A program made the position numbers and the translations under genes. Source: a virus. From it: a DNA stretch of 64,000 bases. Positions 24,977 to 50,224 of this stretch are shown here, piece by piece. The DNA lies in IMG/VR virus record IMGVR_UViG_3300001282_000007, positions 1-64,000 of that record; one strand, given 5' to 3'. Within the stretch, counting starts at the first letter, position 1. Every line of letters starts with the position of its first letter. The notes under the pieces are model-generated. The model did not search any database and was not told where the DNA came from. It saw only the letters and a program-made list of their open reading frames with translations.

Positions 24977-26521
24977 ATGAGAGATTTAATCAACGTACTT
25001 GACAGCATAATAACTGAGGTGACCATCAGTAAACCCAAATATGGACCTGGCACTCAATTTTCTGTTTCCACAGGGTCAGAAGCTGGAAAAAAGTTACTGA
25101 CATTGTTGCAGCAACAAGGATTTGATGCTACTCCGCCATTGACCAGGCAAGACGACACAGAATTGAGCGAAAAAGATATCTTAAATCTCCCCACAGTTAC
25201 ATATGGAAAAGGCGGCGACGGTTATATTTTTTCCAATAATGCTGGACAGTCTGTTTTGATTGTTGGCAGTTCTAGTACCATTGGGGCAGCGTTTAATGTG
25301 TATACTGGAGCCACTGCCGACGACGATGTTGGGAAAATTGCCAATCGCGGCGAAACAGCCGAAGGTATTCTGGGCGCTGCTATGTTTGCTAAATTCACCA
25401 AACGTGAATCTGACGAAGATATCGGCACAGTGACCGCTCAGGACATCGGCAATGTGCTTGACAGTTTAAAGCAAACCGGTGAGGATCAATATCAAGTGGA
25501 AGTGGAAGATTTTGATAATGAACATGCGGATGTGATTTCGTTTGTGCTGAGACTTAAATCCGGGCCGTATCAGGATCTCATGGATCCTGCCAAGCGACCG
25601 CTGTTGGCCAGTGAATTCTCCAGTGCCGCTGCTTATGTCAACAGTTCGGACGCTGAACGATACAGCAAGTATTTTTATATCAATGGCAGGTCAGATCAGA
25701 TCGTGATCATGGCCGATGGCGTCACAGGTGAAACAGAACAAAAGACCGATGTGTGGGTGTTTGTCACTGATGAAAATGGCCAGCCACGTAAACTTAGACT
25801 CAATACCAGTCTCAAGGTAGGTGGTATTAAACAGTTTGGACAAGTGGGTGGCGACAGTGCAGAAACCCAACAGATCTTGTGGAATTATTTTGGTGTTGAT
25901 GCAAGTTCTGCGTTGGCCAAATTTACCAAGGCAATGAAATCCAATTCACCAACAGCAACAAGAGATGCATTCAAACAAATATATCAATATGCTGCTACCG
26001 AACTAGACAACAAATTGAAAAACGCCAGACCTGAAGATGAAGCCAACATAATTGATGCCATTGCCACTGGTATCACACACTTTGCTACACTGGGCGATCC
26101 CAATGTTGAACTGGTGGACTTCAGCGATGGTGGATTCAAGATTTTGAGATTCAACAAGCTGGTTGAAAAATTAAAGAATACAGATCTTGAAGCCACTTAC
26201 GTTGATAAAAAAACTTGGCCAGAAGTGGTCATTCATGAACGCGATAACCCTAATAATAAACTGCTGACCATCAGGATGAAAGTAGAGAACAAACCCAAGG
26301 GCGGTATCTATGTTCGCACTTACATTGAAAAGGGTCCGCTGTTGGAAAAACTCACCGAATACCGAAAAGCCAGTTGGGACAATGCTCCAGCTGCTACTGG
26401 TGCCGAAGATCTAGATGCAGTTACCGGCACACCAAGACTATCGGGTCCTGGTGCACGAGCAGCAAAGACAAATCGCGAACCCAGAATGGATCGTGCCACC
26501 CTAGGGCGCGAGCGTCGTTAA
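24977..26521 (+). CDS. Large protein with capsid-targeting-like leader and PD-(D/E)XK-like core
   Basis: A 514-aa protein. The N-terminus MRDLINVLDSIITEV resembles T4 capsid-targeting leaders. A middle block, EQKTDVWVFVTDENGQPRKL then NTSLKVGGIKQFGQVGG, has the D...(S)xK spacing of a restriction-like nuclease core. The rest is mixed alpha/beta with an Arg-rich C-terminus. It is plausible as an injected nuclease or other virion protein, but neither is established. I start at the ATG behind the TAAATA box. Confidence 0.6.
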   Translation: MRDLINVLDSIITEVTISKPKYGPGTQFSVSTGSEAGKKLLTLLQQQGFDATPPLTRQDDTELSEKDILNLPTVTYGKGGDGYIFSNNAGQSVLIVGSSSTIGAAFNVYTGATADDDVGKIANRGETAEGILGAAMFAKFTKRESDEDIGTVTAQDIGNVLDSLKQTGEDQYQVEVEDFDNEHADVISFVLRLKSGPYQDLMDPAKRPLLASEFSSAAAYVNSSDAERYSKYFYINGRSDQIVIMADGVTGETEQKTDVWVFVTDENGQPRKLRLNTSLKVGGIKQFGQVGGDSAETQQILWNYFGVDASSALAKFTKAMKSNSPTATRDAFKQIYQYAATELDNKLKNARPEDEANIIDAIATGITHFATLGDPNVELVDFSDGGFKILRFNKLVEKLKNTDLEATYVDKKTWPEVVIHERDNPNNKLLTIRMKVENKPKGGIYVRTYIEKGPLLEKLTEYRKASWDNAPAATGAEDLDAVTGTPRLSGPGARAAKTNREPRMDRATLGRERR

Positions 26522-27090
26522 CGTCCCAGTGTGGATATTGCATCGCAGATGTGCAGTTCCAGAGCCTGAGTAGCATCAAGCCAAACATCATGTGGTGGCA
26601 ACAGCTTGGCCCGAACAGTTTCATCATCAAGCCCGGTACAGTCCCGGTAGTGCTGTATCATGCGCTTTTGTGTAAGCTCAAATTCACGCATGGTAGCAAA
26701 CAATTCATGCACCTTGCCATCGCTGCCCCAGCTGAACTGGTGACTCAGGATACTGGTGTTGGGAGTAAGGATTCTACGTCCCGGGGAACCTGCTAGAAAT
26801 ATCAAGAGTCCTGCACTGGCAATCTGTCCCAGTCCCACTGTTTTGACCGCAATAGCACTGCTGCGCATGACATCAATTAGTGCAAAGGCAGCACTCATGT
26901 CTCCACCTTCTGAGCAGATCATCAGCAGGAGTTCTTTGCGCTTTTTCTTGACCACATAGTTTTCATGCAGAATCCACTCTATCACTGGTTTGATACTGTC
27001 ATGGTCTATTTCACCCATGAGTACCAGCATGCCTGAGTCGGCCAGCCGTTGGGTGTGTGATTGATCTAGATTTTCAGTTTCTGTGGCCAT
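26518..27090 (-). CDS. ClpP-family protease, divergent paralogue 2
   Basis: A 190-aa protein with the ClpP fold. Nucleophile Ser92 is in GQIASAGLLIFLAGS and catalytic His117 in TSILSHQFS; CSEGGDMSAA matches the SPGG oxyanion strand. It is more diverged than the clpP at 22373 and resembles the phage-type ClpP of T4-like phages. It could form mixed ClpP1P2 rings. It overlaps the convergent 514-aa gene by 4 nt. Confidence 0.85.
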   Translation of the reverse strand: MATETENLDQSHTQRLADSGMLVLMGEIDHDSIKPVIEWILHENYVVKKKRKELLLMICSEGGDMSAAFALIDVMRSSAIAVKTVGLGQIASAGLLIFLAGSPGRRILTPNTSILSHQFSWGSDGKVHELFATMREFELTQKRMIQHYRDCTGLDDETVRAKLLPPHDVWLDATQALELHICDAISTLGR

Positions 27091-30746: not shown

Positions 30747-31643
30747 TCACGATTGTACCGTGGGTGTGTTGATCTTGTCCCACTTGTCCACCATGGCATT
30801 TTTGAGTGCAACAGTGGTTGGGAATTTGTTCTTACGCATGTAGTTGTTGATCTTGACTGCTGTGGGATAGTCTGAACTGTTGGGCTTGCGAGCATTGCCC
30901 ATGTCCACTCCCAGTCCGCTATCCTCATCAGGATATCTTGATCCATAGTACACCAGATCATGTCGTAGTTTTTCTGCACGTGGAGACAATTCTGACTTGT
31001 TGTTTTTGTAGATCAGTTCCAGCCACGGTTCCAGATACATAGTTGGTGGCCTGCTGGGTGTAACACCCCTGGGTTGTGCGCCCTTGAGTACGGCCGCTGC
31101 TGAGGCTGGGCTCACCGTCTTGCGTGTGTCTTGCAGACGCCAGGCAGTTTCGTCTGTGTAAAAATACGCAGGGATACCACGCTTCTTTGCAGCAATCAAC
31201 ACTGTTCTGGCTTCAGGGCTGCGATATTCACTTTGTTCTTTCAGCAGCACATGTACCGCTGTCACACCTTCAATTGAGATTTCGGGCTCACGACTAAACA
31301 CACGGTCTTCGCTTTCGCGACTTCTAGCACCGTCGCTGTGCAACCACGCACGTTCCCAGTAGTCCATAGGTCGAGTCTTGTAGTTGCGATTCAACCAGGT
31401 GCCGTCGATCACAAACATCACACCGCCTGTGCCAACATATCTATGATAGTCGCCCACTCGACTGCGTGTGGTACTTAAAAAATAAAGATATCCCGGGGGA
31501 GCATACATTTCTTCACTCTTGTTGCCGGTCACGCTGCTGAGTTGAAATACACCGCTGGTGAGTATTTTGGCTGCTGCACCTATACCTGCATAATGGTACA
31601 CCACTGCGGTGGCTGCTTCTGCTAGGAATTCTTGTGCTCTCAT
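30747..31643 (-). CDS. ADP-ribosyltransferase-like protein with capsid-targeting-like leader
   Basis: A 298-aa protein. Leader MRAQEFLAEAA closely resembles the T4 capsid-targeting sequence MKTYQEFIAEA. Then VVYHYAGIGAAAKILTSGVFQLSS, GYLYFLSTTRSR, VMFVIDGTWLN and ESEDRVFS (Glu at 110-112) follow the H...ILxxG / STTR / E-x-E order of ART-like folds. By analogy with T4 Alt it may be packaged and injected. A catalytic role is inferred, not shown. It overlaps the isochorismatase-like gene by 4 nt. Confidence 0.55.
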   Translation of the reverse strand: MRAQEFLAEAATAVVYHYAGIGAAAKILTSGVFQLSSVTGNKSEEMYAPPGYLYFLSTTRSRVGDYHRYVGTGGVMFVIDGTWLNRNYKTRPMDYWERAWLHSDGARSRESEDRVFSREPEISIEGVTAVHVLLKEQSEYRSPEARTVLIAAKKRGIPAYFYTDETAWRLQDTRKTVSPASAAAVLKGAQPRGVTPSRPPTMYLEPWLELIYKNNKSELSPRAEKLRHDLVYYGSRYPDEDSGLGVDMGNARKPNSSDYPTAVKINNYMRKNKFPTTVALKNAMVDKWDKINTPTVQS

Positions 31644-32284
31644 GTGTACACCAAACTGTCTATGCGTTTGTAACGAATATTAAACGCATTCATCAACAAT
31701 TCAACTTCTCGTAAACATTGATCTCTAGCACCGCCTACCAGGTAAGCACCACTAAATCGTTTTAATTGTGCCACACTAGTCCAGTTTACTGTCAGAGGTT
31801 CATCATTTAATTCTTCCATAGCACCCTGGATCAAGGACTGCTGTGGCGTGCGTTTGTTGAATGGAGGAAACTGCAATTCTCTGCTGTCGCTTTTGTGTTG
31901 TTGATATAACTCACGTATGGTAGCAATAATAGTAGCCGGTTCTATACCAGCATCCATCCATCCACGGAAGTATCCATAGCCTTTGTCCACTATTTGAAAG
32001 CGGCTCCAGTTAATGGGATTAACATCAGGGTTGTTGTCGTACCAGTCTGGATCAATGGTATCTTCCCAGTATGTTTGAATCGCAGCCACAGTATCACCAC
32101 TGAGTCCTTGATCTTCTGCATTGACAAACATCAACACAGGGCCAGTTTGCTTGTTGACAAAGTTTATAATTTGCGGAAAAACAGCACTTTCATCCCCATC
32201 ATGCATGCCTGAATACTCGGGTTGCACATCCACTACAATAACTGGATGTGCGGTACCTTCATTAAGAAATTCGTTTGCTCTCAT
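31640..32284 (-). CDS. Isochorismatase-like cysteine hydrolase with capsid-targeting-like leader
   Basis: A 214-aa protein. Leader MRANEFLNEG is near-identical in form to that of the next gene. PVIVVDVQPEY (Asp19), VDKGYGYF (Lys101) and GGARDQC (Cys190) supply the Asp-Lys-Cys triad of isochorismatase/nicotinamidase-type hydrolases. The metal-binding His set of nicotinamidases is not obvious. The start is the ATG 5 nt after a TAAATA box; an upstream in-frame start would translate that box. Confidence 0.68.
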   Translation of the reverse strand: MRANEFLNEGTAHPVIVVDVQPEYSGMHDGDESAVFPQIINFVNKQTGPVLMFVNAEDQGLSGDTVAAIQTYWEDTIDPDWYDNNPDVNPINWSRFQIVDKGYGYFRGWMDAGIEPATIIATIRELYQQHKSDSRELQFPPFNKRTPQQSLIQGAMEELNDEPLTVNWTSVAQLKRFSGAYLVGGARDQCLREVELLMNAFNIRYKRIDSLVYT

Positions 32285-32289
32285 AGAGC

Positions 32290-32295
32290 TATTTA
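32290..32295 (-). promoter_or_regulatory. TAAATA late-type box for the ART/isochorismatase pair
   Basis: CTAAATA-GCTCT-ATG: the box ends 5 nt before the start at 32284. Confidence 0.5.
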
Positions 32296-32324
32296 GCTGC
32301 AAAATCGCTAAACAATACTCAATT

Positions 32325-34114: not shown

Positions 34115-35110
34115 TTAGTGTAGTGCCAACCGTTTCCAGTCTGCACGAATCTTGTTCTTCACTGCTAAAGGCAATGCCACATAGTCTAGGTCATCTGCTG
34201 CTCGATCTCCACTGGCAAATGCCCAGTCAAAGAAAGCAATAGCAGTTTTGGATTTAGCAGCATCTTCGGGTTTCAAATACACTAGGATAAATGTAGCACC
34301 TGAGATGGGCCATGCTTCTTTGCCTGCTTGATTGGTTAGAATCTGAAAGTATGTTCGGTTCCAGTCAGCATTTGCGGCAGCTGCCTTGAATGATTCTTCT
34401 GTGGGTGCCACCCAGGTGCCAGCAGCGTTCTGTACATTGACCCAGTTCATCTTGGTTTGTTTTACATAAGCAAATTCAACATAGCCCAGTGTTCCTGGAA
34501 GTTGTCTAACCATGGCAGCAACACCTTCGTTGCCTTTGCCGCCTGCTCCAACTTTCCAGTTGACTGCTGTGCCTTCACCAATGGTGTCTTTGAATTCTTT
34601 AGATACCTTGCTGAGATAGTTGGTCCAGATAAATGTAGTTCCTGATCCATCTGCTCTGCGAACCACAGTGATTGCTTGGTCAGGTAATGCTAATGAGGGG
34701 TTTAGTGCCCGGATAGCAGCGTCATCCCAGCGAGTAATTTTGCCTAGAAAGATATCAGCAAGCAATGTGCCTGTGAGTTTCATTTGTCCAGGTTCGATGC
34801 CCTTGACGTTGATCACAGGAACCACGCCGCCAATTGCTGTGGGGAACTGGAATAGTCCCAGATCTTTTAGTCGATCATCTGTGAGTGGCATATCACTTGC
34901 ACCAAACGTGACTGTCTTGGCTTCAATCTGTTTGATACCTGCACCTGAGCCAACTGACTGATAGTTGATTTTGATGTTGGTCACGCGGTTGTAGTCACTA
35001 GCCCACTTTGAATACAACGGAGCCGGAAATGTTGCACCGGCTCCTGTAACTTCTTGTGCTGTTGCAGAAACTGCAACAACTGATAATAGAATAGCTAATA
35101 ATTTTTTCAT
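34115..35110 (-). CDS. pstS: Periplasmic phosphate-binding protein PstS
   Basis: A 331-aa substrate-binding protein of the Pst ABC transporter. The signal peptide MKKLLAILLSVVAVSATAQ is followed by VTGAGATFPAPLYSKW. The phosphate-binding motifs SVGSGAGIKQI, TFGASDMPL and RADGSGTTFIWTNYLS are intact. Host PstABC would supply the permease, so extra PstS would raise uptake capacity during infection. Three 11-bp-period Pho-box repeats lie upstream and a terminator lies downstream, so it is a stand-alone unit. CAAGGAGTC precedes the ATG. Confidence 0.95.
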   Translation of the reverse strand: MKKLLAILLSVVAVSATAQEVTGAGATFPAPLYSKWASDYNRVTNIKINYQSVGSGAGIKQIEAKTVTFGASDMPLTDDRLKDLGLFQFPTAIGGVVPVINVKGIEPGQMKLTGTLLADIFLGKITRWDDAAIRALNPSLALPDQAITVVRRADGSGTTFIWTNYLSKVSKEFKDTIGEGTAVNWKVGAGGKGNEGVAAMVRQLPGTLGYVEFAYVKQTKMNWVNVQNAAGTWVAPTEESFKAAAANADWNRTYFQILTNQAGKEAWPISGATFILVYLKPEDAAKSKTAIAFFDWAFASGDRAADDLDYVALPLAVKNKIRADWKRLALH

Positions 35111-35166: not shown

Positions 35167-35458
35167 CAATTTGCAGAATCATGCGAACCAGTCCCACCAT
35201 GTCTATGCTCACCAACAGGATGTAGTTAGCCAGCATACCAAAAGATTTCCTAGTATAACTAGCCCAAGCATACATGGCACAACCAGTGATCCAGATAGGA
35301 TACATGTACAACAACGGAGGGTTTGGGACGGTGATCGCCATTGTGATCGAGCAGCCAATAGACACTGCCCAAGCCACAATCTCAACTGCAAAACGCACAG
35401 GGTAAGTTTTATAGTCATCTCGTATCCAAGAAAAAATGTTGGGTAGTATATCGTTCAT
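35162..35458 (-). CDS. Conserved phage membrane protein (SFGMLANYILLVSID)
   Basis: A 98-aa protein with three or four hydrophobic segments. PNPPLLYMYPIWITGCAMYAW and SFGMLANYILLVSIDMVGL are conserved in T4-like cyanophage and freshwater-phage membrane proteins. Function is unknown. Its end overlaps the pstS Pho repeats by a few bases. Confidence 0.68.
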   Translation of the reverse strand: MNDILPNIFSWIRDDYKTYPVRFAVEIVAWAVSIGCSITMAITVPNPPLLYMYPIWITGCAMYAWASYTRKSFGMLANYILLVSIDMVGLVRMILQIV

Positions 35459-36483
35459 GTCTGGGCCAGTCGCTGATTGTACACCTGCTCACTGGCAAGA
35501 TTCTTGCCCTTGGCCTCACACTGAATATCCCACTGATCACCAAATGTCAGGGCCCATTCATTGCAGGCAGTGTTCCACATCATATCGCTGTGTGCCCGGA
35601 GCTTCTGCTTTTTAAAACCTGCTGCAAGTAGTCCAGCAAGATCGGGTCGAACTCGGTGATCGTGACCCACCAAAATATCTTCACGGCTAACACTGTAGTG
35701 AAGAGCAGGACGAACACCACGCCAAGACTCAACAACCCGTTGCGCACGAGGGTCCGCAGGCGTGATGTATTCTCCGGAGTTGATCCAGTGATGGTGTATG
35801 TCCAGCACAAGAGCCACATGCTCAGCCACAAGTAAAGTAGAATCGATGCCATTTGTCATTTCGTCATTTTCGATGGAGATAAGATTCCTGGCCTCGGAAC
35901 TGAGGCGACCCAAGGTCTTTAGGAATTTAGTGACACCACCTTTGCCACTTAAATGTACATTTATCTTGAATCCCGAGTCATGCCAACTTTTTCCATAGCC
36001 CATCCAGCGGGCCATGTCTGCATGATACTCAAATTCCAGGATACTGCGTTCCACAATCACGTCATGCTCGCTGGCCAGCACACAAAACTGTCCGGGATGG
36101 AAGCTGAGTCGCACACCCAGTCTGCGGGCAGTTTCGCCCACAGGAGCAAAGATCCGTTCACAGTGATCTTGTATCTCTTTGCGCTGCCACCAGTCGATCC
36201 ATGAAGGTTCAGTATAGCCTTGCAGCATTTCTGAACCCAGCCGTACCATTCTACGACCTTCAGGCAGGGTAGCCACTCGTTCAATCATGCGAACTGCTGC
36301 TGTGGCATTGTGATTCATTATGTCCCATTGCCGCTGTTCAGCTTCATCCTTGTGCTCTCGAAGCCAGCGCATGGTGGTTGATCGGCCGTTTAGTTCACGG
36401 TCCACAGCATTGACTTTCATGCCGCCGCATTCGGACGGATCATTGAGCCATTTGCAACAAAAACCAATTTGGGGTATAGTCAT
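35455..36483 (-). CDS. UV damage endonuclease (UvdE family)
   Basis: A 342-aa TIM-barrel endonuclease. GFCCKWLNDP, RLSFHPGQFCVLASE, FKINVHLSGKGG, ISIENDEM (metal ligands) and LDIHHHW match UVDE/UvsE enzymes, which nick 5' to UV photoproducts. The start ATG lies just after the upstream stop (TGATATG). Conserved His and Glu ligands are present, so it is likely active. UVDE genes are common in phages exposed to sunlight. Confidence 0.88.
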   Translation of the reverse strand: MTIPQIGFCCKWLNDPSECGGMKVNAVDRELNGRSTTMRWLREHKDEAEQRQWDIMNHNATAAVRMIERVATLPEGRRMVRLGSEMLQGYTEPSWIDWWQRKEIQDHCERIFAPVGETARRLGVRLSFHPGQFCVLASEHDVIVERSILEFEYHADMARWMGYGKSWHDSGFKINVHLSGKGGVTKFLKTLGRLSSEARNLISIENDEMTNGIDSTLLVAEHVALVLDIHHHWINSGEYITPADPRAQRVVESWRGVRPALHYSVSREDILVGHDHRVRPDLAGLLAAGFKKQKLRAHSDMMWNTACNEWALTFGDQWDIQCEAKGKNLASEQVYNQRLAQT

Positions 36484-36484
36484 A

Positions 36485-37033
36485 TCAATCACTGTTGTTG
36501 TTCAGTAATTGTAACACATTTGGTAATAAATCTCTAGTGATATTGGAGAGTTTTTGGATAGGCTCGTCAAGATTTTTTGGATGATCCACTATCACCCACT
36601 GTTTTCCGCTGTCACGAATCGACTGCGCTAACAATCCAATATAGTTGTTTCGGCTGACCTTTGCGTTGGGTTTGGATTCCAGGTCAAACCCCACCATGAT
36701 TATGACATCTGCCACACTGGCCGATAAATGAGCAGCCACAATGTCATCCACAGAATCCACAACAAAATCAAATGCTCCGCCAAACACATTAACACGCGGC
36801 GGTTTGTGCAGAGTTTCATAAACAGTTTCTGGAATGTAAAGATTGCATACATCAGCGTAGCCTTGCTCGATCAACACCGCTGCTTGGTCGGCATCCCAGC
36901 ACACCACATTGTCAGTTTGATATGCTCGTTGAGTGCGCCAGCTGCCCCAGATGGGTGCAATGTCACGCATGGGTTGTGTGTCCTGACCCGGCGGCAACAG
37001 AGTATTTTCAGCCAACAGCCAGGCTATATTCAT
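36485..37033 (-). CDS. Conserved T4-like phage protein paired with amidinotransferase
   Basis: A 182-aa protein. MNIAWLLAENTLLPPGQDT and a Rossmann-like core (DVIIMVGFDLESKPN, WVIVDHPKN) are shared by proteins next to phage amidinotransferases. Function is unknown. The start overlaps the amidinotransferase stop as ATGA. Confidence 0.65.
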   Translation of the reverse strand: MNIAWLLAENTLLPPGQDTQPMRDIAPIWGSWRTQRAYQTDNVVCWDADQAAVLIEQGYADVCNLYIPETVYETLHKPPRVNVFGGAFDFVVDSVDDIVAAHLSASVADVIIMVGFDLESKPNAKVSRNNYIGLLAQSIRDSGKQWVIVDHPKNLDEPIQKLSNITRDLLPNVLQLLNNNSD

Positions 37034-43297: not shown

Positions 43298-44509
43298 TTA
43301 GCTGTTTACAACCCGGAGTTCCTCGGGTTCTGCCACCTGATCCGTGTCAATTGACAGCACAGCAATGCCTTGCTGGCGGTATTGTGCAAGATGAAACATG
43401 TGCGGCAACAGCACACGTTCTAGTTCGCTGTGCAGACCACGTGCACCAGTTTGATTGACCAAGGTGCGCTCCGCAATCTCATCCAGTGCCGCCACAGTAA
43501 ACGTCAAGTCCACGCCATCTTCAGAAAATAGCCAACGATACTGATCCACATAGTTATTCTTGATCTCTGTGAGAATTCTAATCAGGTCCGCTTTGCTGAG
43601 TTGTTTCAAACTGACCCAGTTGGGAAAACGTCCAACAAATTCCGGAATCATGCCAAACTTCACCAGGTCATCTGGTGTGGTCATGTCCAGATCGGTATCA
43701 ATAGATGTTTTTGCAACCTTGGCGTTAAAGCCAATGGAGGTTCCTTGCACACGATTTTTCACTATGGTATCTAGCCCCACAAATGCGCCACCAGCAATAA
43801 ACAAAATGTTGCGAGTGTCAATTTCAATCATGTCACCACCAGGATGCTTTCTGCCACCACCTGCTGCTGGAATACGACACACAGTGCCTTCTACCATTTT
43901 TAACAGGGCCTGTTGTACACCTTCGCCTGACACATCTCTAGTGATCGACGAGCTTTCGCCCTTGCGAGCAATTTTGTCAATCTCATCCACAAACACAATA
44001 CCCTGCTGTGTCTTGGCCACATCGTTGCCTGATGCAGCATACAATCTAGTGATTAGACTTTCCACATCGTCACCCACATATCCTGCTTCAGTGATACTTG
44101 TGGCATCAGCAATGGCAAATGGCACATCAAGATAACGTGCCACTGACTTGGCCAACAAAGTTTTGCCTGAGCCAGTGGGTCCTAACATCAAGATGTTGGC
44201 TTTGTCCATTTCTGGATCAGTTGTGGTCTTGCTGATGCGTTTGTAATGATTCACAATGGCCACACTGATCATGATCTTGGCAGCGTCCTGACCAATCACA
44301 TACTGATCCAGATAGTTCTTCAGGATCATTGGATCTAGTTTGGCTGATGGTGGTTCGGGTGGCACAACTGGTTCGTCAGTTGACAACAGTCCCTGACAAA
44401 AATCCACGCACTCGTTGCAGATGCCTGCATACTCGCCAACAATAAGTTTACGCACGTCATCTTTATTTTTGCCACAGAAGCTGCATGAGGAATGGGTTTC
44501 TTTGATCAT
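43298..44509 (-). CDS. clpX: ClpX-type AAA+ unfoldase
   Basis: A 403-aa protein. Zinc-binding Cys are C9, C12, C31 and C34 (CSFC...CNEC), Walker A GPTGSGKT is at 110-117, GYVGDDVES and Walker B FVDEID follow, the RKH pore loop is in [10 protein letters not shown], the ClpP-docking loop reads SIGF, and sensor-2 is TGARGLHSE. All elements of a functional ClpX are present. No SD is seen before the ATG. It probably feeds phage ClpP1/ClpP2 or host ClpP. Confidence 0.95.
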
Positions 44510-44513
44510 TATT

Positions 44514-45926
44514 TTATTCTGGAAGTTGTTGTATGCGTTGTTCGATTTGATCACGTTCACTGTCACTCAAAAGCTCAGGATCATACAATCCTTTTTCAAT
44601 TTGAACAATCAAGTGATCTATGTATGCTATGTCGTAAGTATACTGGTCTTTTATAGAATTGTCAACTTTGATCCAGCCGGAGCCGTTGAATTTATACAAC
44701 ACATTGGGAATCGTTGTGGTCAACACATAGCTGTCACCTTTTACAGCAGTGTCGGGCAGGTGTGTTCCAAATCCAGATGTAGGTTCATGTGATGGCAAAA
44801 ACTTTAGCCAAGGCAGTTCTTCTATCTGCCCAGAGTCAAATAATTTTCGTTGATGTTTGAGTGTGTCTGTGGGATTCTCGGCCTTCCATTGTGTCATGGC
44901 TGCTTTGAGTTCAGGACTTTCTTCGTCGGAGTCATCATCGTCGGGCAGTGTTGTTTCTGCTGCTTGTGGCACTGGCTGTGGGTCGGGCTCAAACATCCAA
45001 CCGGCTGGATGCGGGTTCTCAGGAAATAGTTCTTGCCGGCTCACAAGTTCGCCAGTGGGCAAGTCTTGTTGTGCTCTAGCACGTAACTGTTCCAGTACTT
45101 CTGGATCAATGGGACCATCATCAGGTTCATATGCTGGTGGCTCAGGTTCAAGCACTCGACTGGTGCGACCTTCACGTGCCCACTTGAGACTTTCTGTAGA
45201 TGCCAACAGCATCATGATAGCTAGTGGATCAAATACACAAACCAACAACATGATCACCCAGCGTACTGCACGTTCCAGAACATTGGCATCAGGATTGTCA
45301 CCGTAGATCAAGGCTGCAATGTACTTGATTGGACCTACTTCAGCTTCGATCTTGCGAAATTCTGCTCGGAGTGGTGCTGCTTCTTCGTTCAGCTTGGCCA
45401 CGGTTTTCTGCTCAGTGTCAATTTCGGCTATGAGACGAGCACGTTCTTTATTTTGAGATCTGCGGATCTGAACAGCTTTCTCAGCACCTTTCTCATCGGC
45501 ACTGCGACCCATGACCTGGTCCACAGCTTCATCCATCTGTTTAAGTGCCCGACGGTTGGCGTCAATGTTGTCTTTGGATGTTCGAATTTTTTCATCAAAG
45601 ATCAAAACCTTGGCCTGACTGTCGCCACTCACAAGACTCTGATCACTGTGTGCTTTTGACAAGAAACCAAAGATGCCCATGCTGGTGATCAACATTAGCA
45701 TGATCACAGCAGACACCAGGTATATTTTCATCAACCATCTGGCTCGTGGCCAGTACTCGTGCAGCCATATGGTCACAACCACCTTGGCCAATTCCAGGAT
45801 GGATCCCATGATCATGATGGGTATCACTGCGGCTGCAAATATAGCTGCCAGGCCGGCAATGCTGTAGTAGGCAGCAATAACGCTGAGACTCAGAGCCACG
45901 GCTAGAGTTATAAGACTAAGAAACAT
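44514..45926 (-). CDS. Membrane protein with N-terminal TM bundle and coiled coil
   Basis: A 470-aa protein. TM segments are at about residues 3-25, 28-52 and 66-90, plus one near 225-245. [12 protein letters not shown] after the third helix is a hallmark of a large family in marine T4-like phages. A long coiled coil (residues 110-205) and a Pro/Asp-rich linker follow. Function is unknown; it may be an inner-membrane or virion-associated factor. Confidence 0.7.
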
Positions 45927-48659: not shown

Positions 48660-48860
48660 CTAGGCCATTCTATCTATGTTTTGTCCCGCACGGTTCATTC
48701 TACGATTCATTTCAATTCTTGCTTGTTCATCAACTTTGGCATCGGCCTGTACACGTCGTTCTTCTAGTCTAAGTTCTTCGTGACGCTTGTCCACCTTTTT
48801 GATTTCCATCTGTCGATACACTTCTGCATTTTGTGCAGATATTCTGCTGACTTCTGTCAT
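48660..48860 (-). CDS. Small coiled-coil protein
   Basis: A 66-aa highly charged helix (RISAQNAEVYRQMEIKKVDK...MNRRMNRAGQNIDRMA). The start overlaps the DNA ligase stop (ATGA). Function is unknown. Confidence 0.62.
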   Translation of the reverse strand: MTEVSRISAQNAEVYRQMEIKKVDKRHEELRLEERRVQADAKVDEQARIEMNRRMNRAGQNIDRMA

Positions 48861-50224
48861 AGTTTTTCTCCTGCTTCAAATCCACGAAAGCGTACAAAGC
48901 GCGGAAATCTCAATGAGTATGATCCGTCTTGGTTTTGTGTGACTGCGTCCGCTTCGACTTCAACCACGTCACCAAGTAGCTCATTCCGACTGGCCCAATA
49001 CTCATCACGAAGAGTATCGCTAAACCCACTGCCAACATTAACGCAAATTCTACGGTCATCATCAACTCCTTCACAAATTATAGCACCCAACCGGCCCTGA
49101 TTGCGACCGGTACCTTCTTCAAAACCCACAATATTAAGATCAACTGTGATTGTGGGTTTCCATTTCATCCAAAAACTAGATCGCTTGCACTCATATGGTG
49201 CGCCAAGATCCTTGATCATGATACCTTCAAATCCGTTGGCCACAGCATCCTGTGCATATCGATTCATGATGTCATGCCCTTCGGCTGTGTCCAGATCCAC
49301 AGTGATACCGTCCATGAGACGCAGACAATCTGTAGCATCAAACCGTGCTCGAGATCCTGTTAAAATATCAAGTCGCTTGCTCTGTTGTGCATTATAGTGT
49401 CCTTCTTGAAAACTGTCAAGTGGAATGATATCAAACACATGATACACCATGTCCGTGGTTTCGGCATTTGTTTTGCGTTGTGCCTGCCGCATGAGTTGTT
49501 GAAAGCTGGCACCTACAATCTCGCCGTCCAGCACATATCGTCCGCCAAACGCACCAATCAGTTTGCGGTTGGCAGCAATGGCTTCGGCCACGTGCGGAAA
49601 GTTTTCAAACGGCTTGCCATTGCGGCTGTACAGTGTAACACTGGCACCTTGTACCACTGCCAGAACTCGCACACCATCCAGTTTGACCTCCAGGCGTTTG
49701 ATGCCTTTCATCTTGGCCGGACGATCAGTTGAATCTTGCGCCAGCTGGCAGGTAAAGGTAGGTATCTTCCAGGATGTTTTGCCCAGAACCTTGTTGAGTG
49801 TTTTCTCACTGATGCCGCAGCGCAGGTCCTTGATCAAGACTCGTCTACACATGCCATTCCACTGCTCCGAATCAAACAGTTCACTCACTTGTTCAATGCG
49901 ATCTCTAGCAGCATGCCCGGTTACTCCGCGAGTTCTCAAGTCCTCACACAAGCCCCAGAATATAGGCCACGGGTTGGGCTGTCCGGTTAGACCCTCAGTC
50001 TCCGGCACCTGGCGAACATTGTACACATAGAAAGGATTGTATGCCAGGTAACAGTTGAACAAAAAACCCTGTGCGCCGGCACTGCCCAATTTTGAAGCCA
50101 TCAAGGCTTTTTCAATCACTCGTTCTTTGTGCAAGCGGCTGTCGCTGGATTCAAGGTCGCGAATCCAGTCAGCTACCACTACGTGTTTCCAAAACTCATT
50201 GTTGTCAAAGTCAATGTCATGCAT
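48857..50224 (-). CDS. ATP-dependent DNA ligase (T4 gp30-like)
   Basis: A 455-aa ligase. The adenylated Lys181 lies in LEVKLDGVRV (motif I), and further nucleotidyltransferase motifs are YSRNGKPFENFPH (III), LDGEIVG, FEGIMIKD (IV) and FWMKWKP (V). An OB fold follows. It seals nicks in phage replication and repair. AGGAG of the coiled-coil gene lies in its 3' end. Confidence 0.93.
   Translation of the reverse strand: MHDIDFDNNEFWKHVVVADWIRDLESSDSRLHKERVIEKALMASKLGSAGAQGFLFNCYLAYNPFYVYNVRQVPETEGLTGQPNPWPIFWGLCEDLRTRGVTGHAARDRIEQVSELFDSEQWNGMCRRVLIKDLRCGISEKTLNKVLGKTSWKIPTFTCQLAQDSTDRPAKMKGIKRLEVKLDGVRVLAVVQGASVTLYSRNGKPFENFPHVAEAIAANRKLIGAFGGRYVLDGEIVGASFQQLMRQAQRKTNAETTDMVYHVFDIIPLDSFQEGHYNAQQSKRLDILTGSRARFDATDCLRLMDGITVDLDTAEGHDIMNRYAQDAVANGFEGIMIKDLGAPYECKRSSFWMKWKPTITVDLNIVGFEEGTGRNQGRLGAIICEGVDDDRRICVNVGSGFSDTLRDEYWASRNELLGDVVEVEADAVTQNQDGSYSLRFPRFVRFRGFEAGEKL

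Follow-up and report, generated by a model that had tools for sequence, protein, structure and literature searches.

Leader-tagged ADP-ribosyltransferase-like and candidate cysteine hydrolase proteins as probable head cargo of a T4-like giant phage

The 64,000-nucleotide stretch analysed here (positions 1 to 64,000 of the IMG/VR virus record IMGVR_UViG_3300001282_000007; hereafter the window) carries two overlapping open reading frames (ORFs), ORF1 and ORF2, that begin with similar nine-residue leaders. ORF1 is predicted to encode a DarT-like ADP-ribosyltransferase (ART) and ORF2 is a candidate cysteine hydrolase. We consider it likely that both are tagged cargo of the head of an uncultured T4-like giant phage. 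The two proteins would probably be packaged in the head, lose their leaders there and enter the host by injection.

31640 to 32284, minus strand: ORF2, isochorismatase-like cysteine hydrolase candidate with leader; 214 amino acids (aa) from the ATG, beginning MRANEFLNEG.
30747 to 31643, minus strand: ORF1, predicted DarT-like ADP-ribosyltransferase with leader; 298 aa, beginning MRAQEFLAEAA.
32258 to 32284, minus strand: ORF2 leader MRANEFLNE, predicted cut E9/G10; E9 is invariant and G10 is present in at least 90% of 21 homologues.
31617 to 31643, minus strand: ORF1 leader MRAQEFLAE, predicted cut E9/A10; E9 is invariant in 45 relatives.

The window lies inside a 99.5-kb virus record, and a 261-kb contig, G001, comes from the same virus, with window base 1 corresponding to G001 base 179,271. 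This contig spans the window with no rearrangement at the sampled points, and its ORF1 and ORF2 proteins are 100% identical to those of the window. Both ORFs lie on the minus strand with a 4-nucleotide overlap at 31640-31643. The start of ORF2 is taken as the ATG, whereas the ORF-listing program begins it at a TTG at 32302. The ORF2-ORF1 order and the 4-nucleotide overlap also occur in the related contig G002, at 61% and 47% identity. Best matches between G002 and the record include RecA/UvsX-like and single-stranded DNA-binding-like proteins, whose sequences read as T4-like. Scans of ORF1 and ORF2 with Pfam, PHROGs, NCBIfam and PADLOC gave no match, and a profile-based PDB sequence search gave no credible one.

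An initial annotation of the window had described this overlapping pair, with its MRAQEFLAEAA and MRANEFLNEG starts, and had likened the leaders to T4 capsid-targeting propeptides. The pair is present as described, and the resemblance is supported by inference from the leader statistics, the L/I-x-E end and the occurrence of an S77 protease in relatives. In phage T4, L/I-x-E is the motif after which the gp21 protease cleaves, and internal proteins have short propeptides that serve as capsid-targeting sequences (PMC9026906). Both leaders in the window end in this cut motif. The targeting sequence of T4 IPIII has 10 residues, of which positions 4 and 7 direct targeting (PMC9026906). The leader here, MRAxEFLxE, has nine; Phe6, Leu7 and Glu9 are present, although there is no clear equivalent of position 4. 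In the AlphaFold2 models, residues 2-6 of ORF2 and 1-7 of ORF1 fall below 50 on the predicted local distance difference test (pLDDT).

The frequency of the leader is far above chance. Of 1,865 ORFs in related loci, 249 match a strict leader pattern within their first 70 aa, whereas the reversed motif occurs in none and ORF interiors yield 2 matches in 317,104 aa. In 152 of the 249, the leader Glu is followed by A, G, S or T (P1'). By their first domain these proteins form 79 unrelated clusters, with GNAT, Nudix and amidoligase domains among them. Within the window the pattern is matched by ORF1 and ORF2 only, and G001 carries at least six further leader genes (MRSSEFLNE/A, MRASEFIHE/T, MRVHEILTE/S, MNINDIITE/S, MRATEFVTE/K and MRASEFVSE/V). 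ORF1 and ORF2 occur in clusters of tagged genes whose neighbours change. Among the eight G001 leaders, residues are kept while codons differ, which indicates selection on the leader peptide and excludes a DNA repeat as its origin.

A different leader type that also ends in Glu, MxLLREYIRELLxE, is found on consecutive genes of a Halobacteriovorax metagenome-assembled genome contig (L162, 985-9838), which is probably viral. One of these leader genes holds an internal ORF2-like module. In the isolated relative Alishewanella phage Slicko01, eight adjoining genes have a leader in common.

The predicted cut site is conserved in position as well as in kind. Of 60 distinct ORF1 relatives, 59 have [LIVM]-x-E at exactly 8 residues from the ART histidine on its N-terminal side, with L in 41, I in 16, M in 1 and V in 1 (57 L/I), compared with 7.1% in random windows. 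Internal modules of longer ORFs account for 16 of the 60 relatives. Similarly, internal ORF2 modules come after SLNE/G (L015), SLDE/G (L033) and TLLE/Q (L161). An S77 (gp21-type) protease was found at 48684-49322 of G002, where homologues of ORF1 and ORF2 are adjacent. A search of ten other contigs found it in each of the five that are 190 kb or longer. With the window phage excluded, the six ART-bearing contigs tested that are 180 kb or longer all encode this protease. The putative scaffold of G002 has nine L/I-x-E/[AGST] sites compared with 1.7 in shuffles, the strongest excess in that genome.

The leader might instead sort proteins to a destination other than the capsid, for example a phage nucleus or the membrane, in which case its L/I-x-E would be coincidental. 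Differences in the leader between phages fit such a tag. However, the same motif also recurs with fixed spacing where internal modules join, it fits gp21 specificity, and L/I-x-E/[AGST] sites are enriched in the G002 scaffold. In addition, twin-arginine translocation (Tat) signals, which need a free N-terminus, sit after the site in relatives, as described below. We regard sorting to a place other than the head as improbable.

Structure prediction strongly links ORF1 to the ART class. An AlphaFold2 model built with 45 relatives has a pLDDT of 88.3 and a predicted template modelling score (pTM) of 0.83, with the leader disordered. In a Foldseek comparison with the PDB, ranks 1-7 are all DarT (probability 1.00 to 0.82), and rank 8 is Tpt1/KptA (0.91). 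Template modelling (TM) scores are about 0.3 by query and 0.36-0.45 by target, and because they span 0.3-0.45 we view ORF1 as a distant relative of DarT. The candidate active-site residues are as follows.

31593 to 31595, minus strand: ORF1 His17 in a YHY motif on strand 1, candidate histidine for binding nicotinamide adenine dinucleotide (NAD); invariant in 18 diverse and 45 closer relatives.
31473 to 31475, minus strand: ORF1 Ser57 in an FLSTTR motif; invariant, as is Arg60, in the same 18 and 45 relatives.
31308 to 31316, minus strand: ORF1 E110-S-E112, candidate catalytic Glu motif (ESEDR); E110, E112 and R114 are invariant in the 18 and 45 relatives.

We infer that H17, S57 and the Glu motif match the His-Ser-Glu arrangement of DarT1 (PMC11543638). 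Relative to DarT, ORF1 has a shorter His-Ser region and an extra C-terminal helical region, and no relative was found in bacterial genomes. The modelled fold makes membership in the ART class well supported. Catalysis by ORF1 would have a host DNA base or a protein as its candidate target.

For ORF2, the AlphaFold2 model has a pLDDT of 85.9 and a pTM of 0.83, and relatives occur in 35 viral loci. A tblastn search of isolated phages with ORF2 gave no match. Three invariant residues stand out.

32228 to 32230, minus strand: ORF2 Asp19, candidate catalytic residue at the end of strand 1 (E15-18); invariant, including in bacterial relatives of about 28-30% identity.
31982 to 31984, minus strand: ORF2 Lys101, candidate catalytic residue at the end of strand 3 (E96-100); invariant in the same set.
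31715 to 31717, minus strand: ORF2 Cys190, candidate nucleophile, first residue of helix H190-200 after strand 4 (E180-184); invariant.

In the model and alignment, the order D19-K101-C190 and the secondary-structure placement of these residues are as in cysteine hydrolases of the isochorismatase/nicotinamidase superfamily (RutB, PncA and N-carbamoylsarcosine amidase). Chromosomal relatives with Asp-Lys-Cys are found in Novimethylophilus and Achromobacter (L159:4860-5540 and L160:4767-5528; 28-30% identity), and these have no Pfam or, as scanned, NCBIfam match.

Several observations weigh against the head-cargo reading or against the enzyme classes assigned within it. In Lu11 (L004) and HRDY3 (L008), adjoining unrelated genes share leaders that lack Glu (MKIQLAVA or MEMMLALA; MEMxLALA), which may be a tag with a different cutting rule or with none. 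Dickeya JA13 and Salmonella Sen-NF each encode an ART without a leader. The S77 protease was not found in G000 or G001, which end before the head genes. For ORF1, the Pfam DarT profile (PF14487) gives no match at E <= 1, and hhalign assigns the DarT relationship a probability of 11%, the aligned part being the YHxT His strand and the next helix. For ORF2, there is no match in the PDB or BFVD at E <= 0.001, and the best TM score is below 0.5.

This last result also favours the view that ORF2 is an unrelated Rossmann-like protein rather than an isochorismatase-superfamily enzyme, as does the lack of a Pfam or NCBIfam match. The isochorismatase profile (PF00857) gives no match (hhalign probability 1-20%), similarity to the nicotinamidase/RutB profiles is weak, and in BFVD a baculovirus glycosyltransferase outscores the cysteine hydrolases. 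Against an unrelated Rossmann-like protein stand the placement of Asp, Lys and Cys at the strand and helix positions seen in cysteine hydrolases, the alignment of the Asp strand with PncA/RutB, and the fact that the highest probabilities among the 50 PDB matches listed belong to isochorismatase-superfamily cysteine hydrolases (8rkz, 0.60, and 3eef, 0.54), neither of them significant. On balance we lean towards an isochorismatase-like protein, and a Rossmann-like protein of other ancestry is a real possibility.

Within the isochorismatase-like assignment, the metal site of nicotinamidases, composed of Asp and His residues after strand 2, is missing: no His is invariant across 21 homologues of ORF2, and strand 2 leads into N55-A56 instead of D-x-H. 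A nicotinamidase is thereby ruled out as the best assignment, and we would give this activity very little chance. ORF2 is probably an amide hydrolase of a kind other than the metal-dependent nicotinamidases.

The initial annotation had proposed that the pair combines an ART-like fold with an Asp-Lys-Cys hydrolase of the nicotinamidase/isochorismatase fold, and that the two form an injected kit that consumes NAD. The first element is borne out by the structure prediction, in which DarT supplies the seven best PDB matches. The second holds in part: the triad is present at the level of the motif, and the superfamily is plausible and unproven, with no significant fold or profile match. The kit itself is not supported. 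It would have the ART free nicotinamide and ORF2, as a nicotinamidase, remove it. The adjacency of ORF1 and ORF2, with the 4-nucleotide overlap and identical order in G002, is what such a kit would predict; ORF2-ART adjacency recurs in divergent phages, the D-K-C triad is invariant, and NMNAT/cytidylyltransferase-like modules occur in some related polyproteins. However, only 5 of 24 lineages have an ART within 4 kb of ORF2 and the other 19 lack one nearby, whereas ASCH-like (9) and GNAT (8) cargo is more often near ORF2; amidoligase and ParB-like cargo is found there in 4 lineages each. These neighbour counts rule out ART-ORF2 coupling as a rule. Together with the missing metal site and the weak profile similarity to nicotinamidase/RutB, they make a dedicated NAD-consuming kit very unlikely. 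A better reading is that both belong to a large head-cargo repertoire whose members shuffle. NAD/ADP-ribose enzymes, ARTs included, were reported by Iyer and co-workers to be often packaged in the heads of myoviruses and to be common among jumbo phages (PMC9503650); the words 'isochorismatase' and 'nicotinamidase' do not appear in that text.

A putative T4-type late-promoter core is located just upstream of the pair.

32290 to 32295, minus strand: TAAATA, putative T4-type late-promoter core, 6-11 nucleotides upstream of the ORF2 ATG.

The same hexamer occurs 60 times within 100 nucleotides upstream of G001 gene calls, compared with 7.6 expected and 4 in an in-gene control. This roughly 8-fold enrichment before G001 genes peaks 10-30 nucleotides from the start, unusually near start codons.

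In the head-cargo model, the nine-residue leader MRAxEFLxE would take the cargo protein into the prohead core, where a gp21-type prohead protease would cut after the Glu of L/I-x-E. The freed enzyme would then travel inside the head and leave it together with the DNA. ORF1, as a DarT-like ART, might modify a host DNA base or protein early in infection, and ORF2 would contribute a probable isochorismatase-superfamily (Asp-Lys-Cys) amide hydrolase. One operon, led by the late-promoter core, would hold both genes, and both products would bear the same delivery tag. Tagged enzymes appear to shuffle between freshwater phages and are sometimes fused as polyproteins with identical cut sites between modules.

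ORF1-like and ORF2-like modules are indeed found inside long ORFs of relatives, the longest of 2,851 aa. A QGVAE/G linker joins many of these modules; QGVAEG linkers occur in relatives only and none is present in the window. The very long ORFs, several of which have QGVAE/G between modules (amidoligase, ParB-like, ART and others), are candidate head-protease polyproteins.

L140:6405-14957, very long ORF.
L146:2-6859, very long ORF.
L151:3065-8710, very long ORF.
L043:10646-13312, very long ORF.
L025:11125-13920, very long ORF.

Scanning for RRxFL with a hydrophobic stretch behind it revealed seven distinct Tat-like signals, all of which come after a predicted cut site or a near variant of one.

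L120:6080-6700, Tat-like signal.
L100:12124-12996, Tat-like signal.
L018:10639-12768, Tat-like signal.
L015:8549-11509, Tat-like signal.
L043:10646-13312, Tat-like signal.
L085:5135-6349, Tat-like signal.
L097:12058-13596, Tat-like signal.

In five of the seven, the Glu of the predicted cut lies two or three residues upstream; L100 (VLED/LT) and L097 (IDE/DLS) have near variants. Pfam or NCBIfam calls the Tat signal in L015, L043 and L018. The signals precede lysozyme-like (GH19, LysM) or other modules. In L120, for example, MRAVEFIAE/IDRRGFLGALGAGAMAAAGVPAQA stands immediately before a GH19-like lysozyme identified by eye, and the sequence after the cut begins IDRRGFLGALG. A Tat signal acts at a free N-terminus, and thus the placement of these signals gives separate support for cutting at the Glu.

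A more speculative reading, which we rate as less likely than not, is that the head protease of this phage group serves both as a polyprotein processor and as an unmasking device for cargo enzymes. Cargo that bears a leader or is fused in a chain would be cut at L/I-x-E only in the prohead, and separate enzymes would be delivered. In some of them, the cut would free a Tat signal, such that a Tat-bearing enzyme would stay masked in the producing cell and could reach the periplasm by export only once it had been injected into the next host.

The system proposed here resembles T4 IPI-III and Alt (PMC9026906) in having a short N-terminal leader with F-(L/I)-x-E on unrelated proteins, an L/I-x-E cut motif, a gp21-type S77 protease (here in relatives) and an ART among the cargo. 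It differs from the T4 internal proteins in the number of tagged proteins, which is much greater (79 first-domain clusters among the loci sampled), in having cut sites also between the modules of long polyproteins, and in an ART that is DarT-like in fold; packaging here is predicted from sequence. In the giant phage SPN3US, head propeptides are removed after A-x-E (PMC10052503). Polyvalent proteins (PMC5512222) likewise combine several domains, among them ART and ParB-like modules, in phage proteins that are thought to be injected. For these, a built-in MPTase domain was proposed to split the modules, whereas the relatives examined here have L/I-x-E-type or GVAE/G linkers that are probably cut by the head protease. 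In the window ORF1 and ORF2 are separate genes; in relatives, each is also found as a module of long ORFs. We found no account in the literature of cargo polyproteins cut by a head protease or of Tat signals behind such sites, in a search that left subscription journals mostly uncovered.

Elsewhere in the window, Pfam identifies host-like genes for a PstS-like phosphate-binding protein (34115-35110), a UvdE-type UV endonuclease (35455-36492), ClpP (26518-27090) and ClpX (43298-44566).

If the leader acts as proposed, the sequence rule M-R-x-x-E-F-[LI]-x-E/, together with internal L/I-x-E/ sites, would make the injected early effectors of uncultured giant phages readable from DNA. Scores of obscure genes would become testable head cargo, including those for DarT-like ARTs, GNATs, Nudix proteins, amidoligases, ParB-like proteins and lysozymes. 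The findings also suggest a role for the head protease in separating polyvalent effectors. Should the Tat observation hold, these enzymes would be addressed in two steps, one of the addresses staying hidden until the capsid matures.
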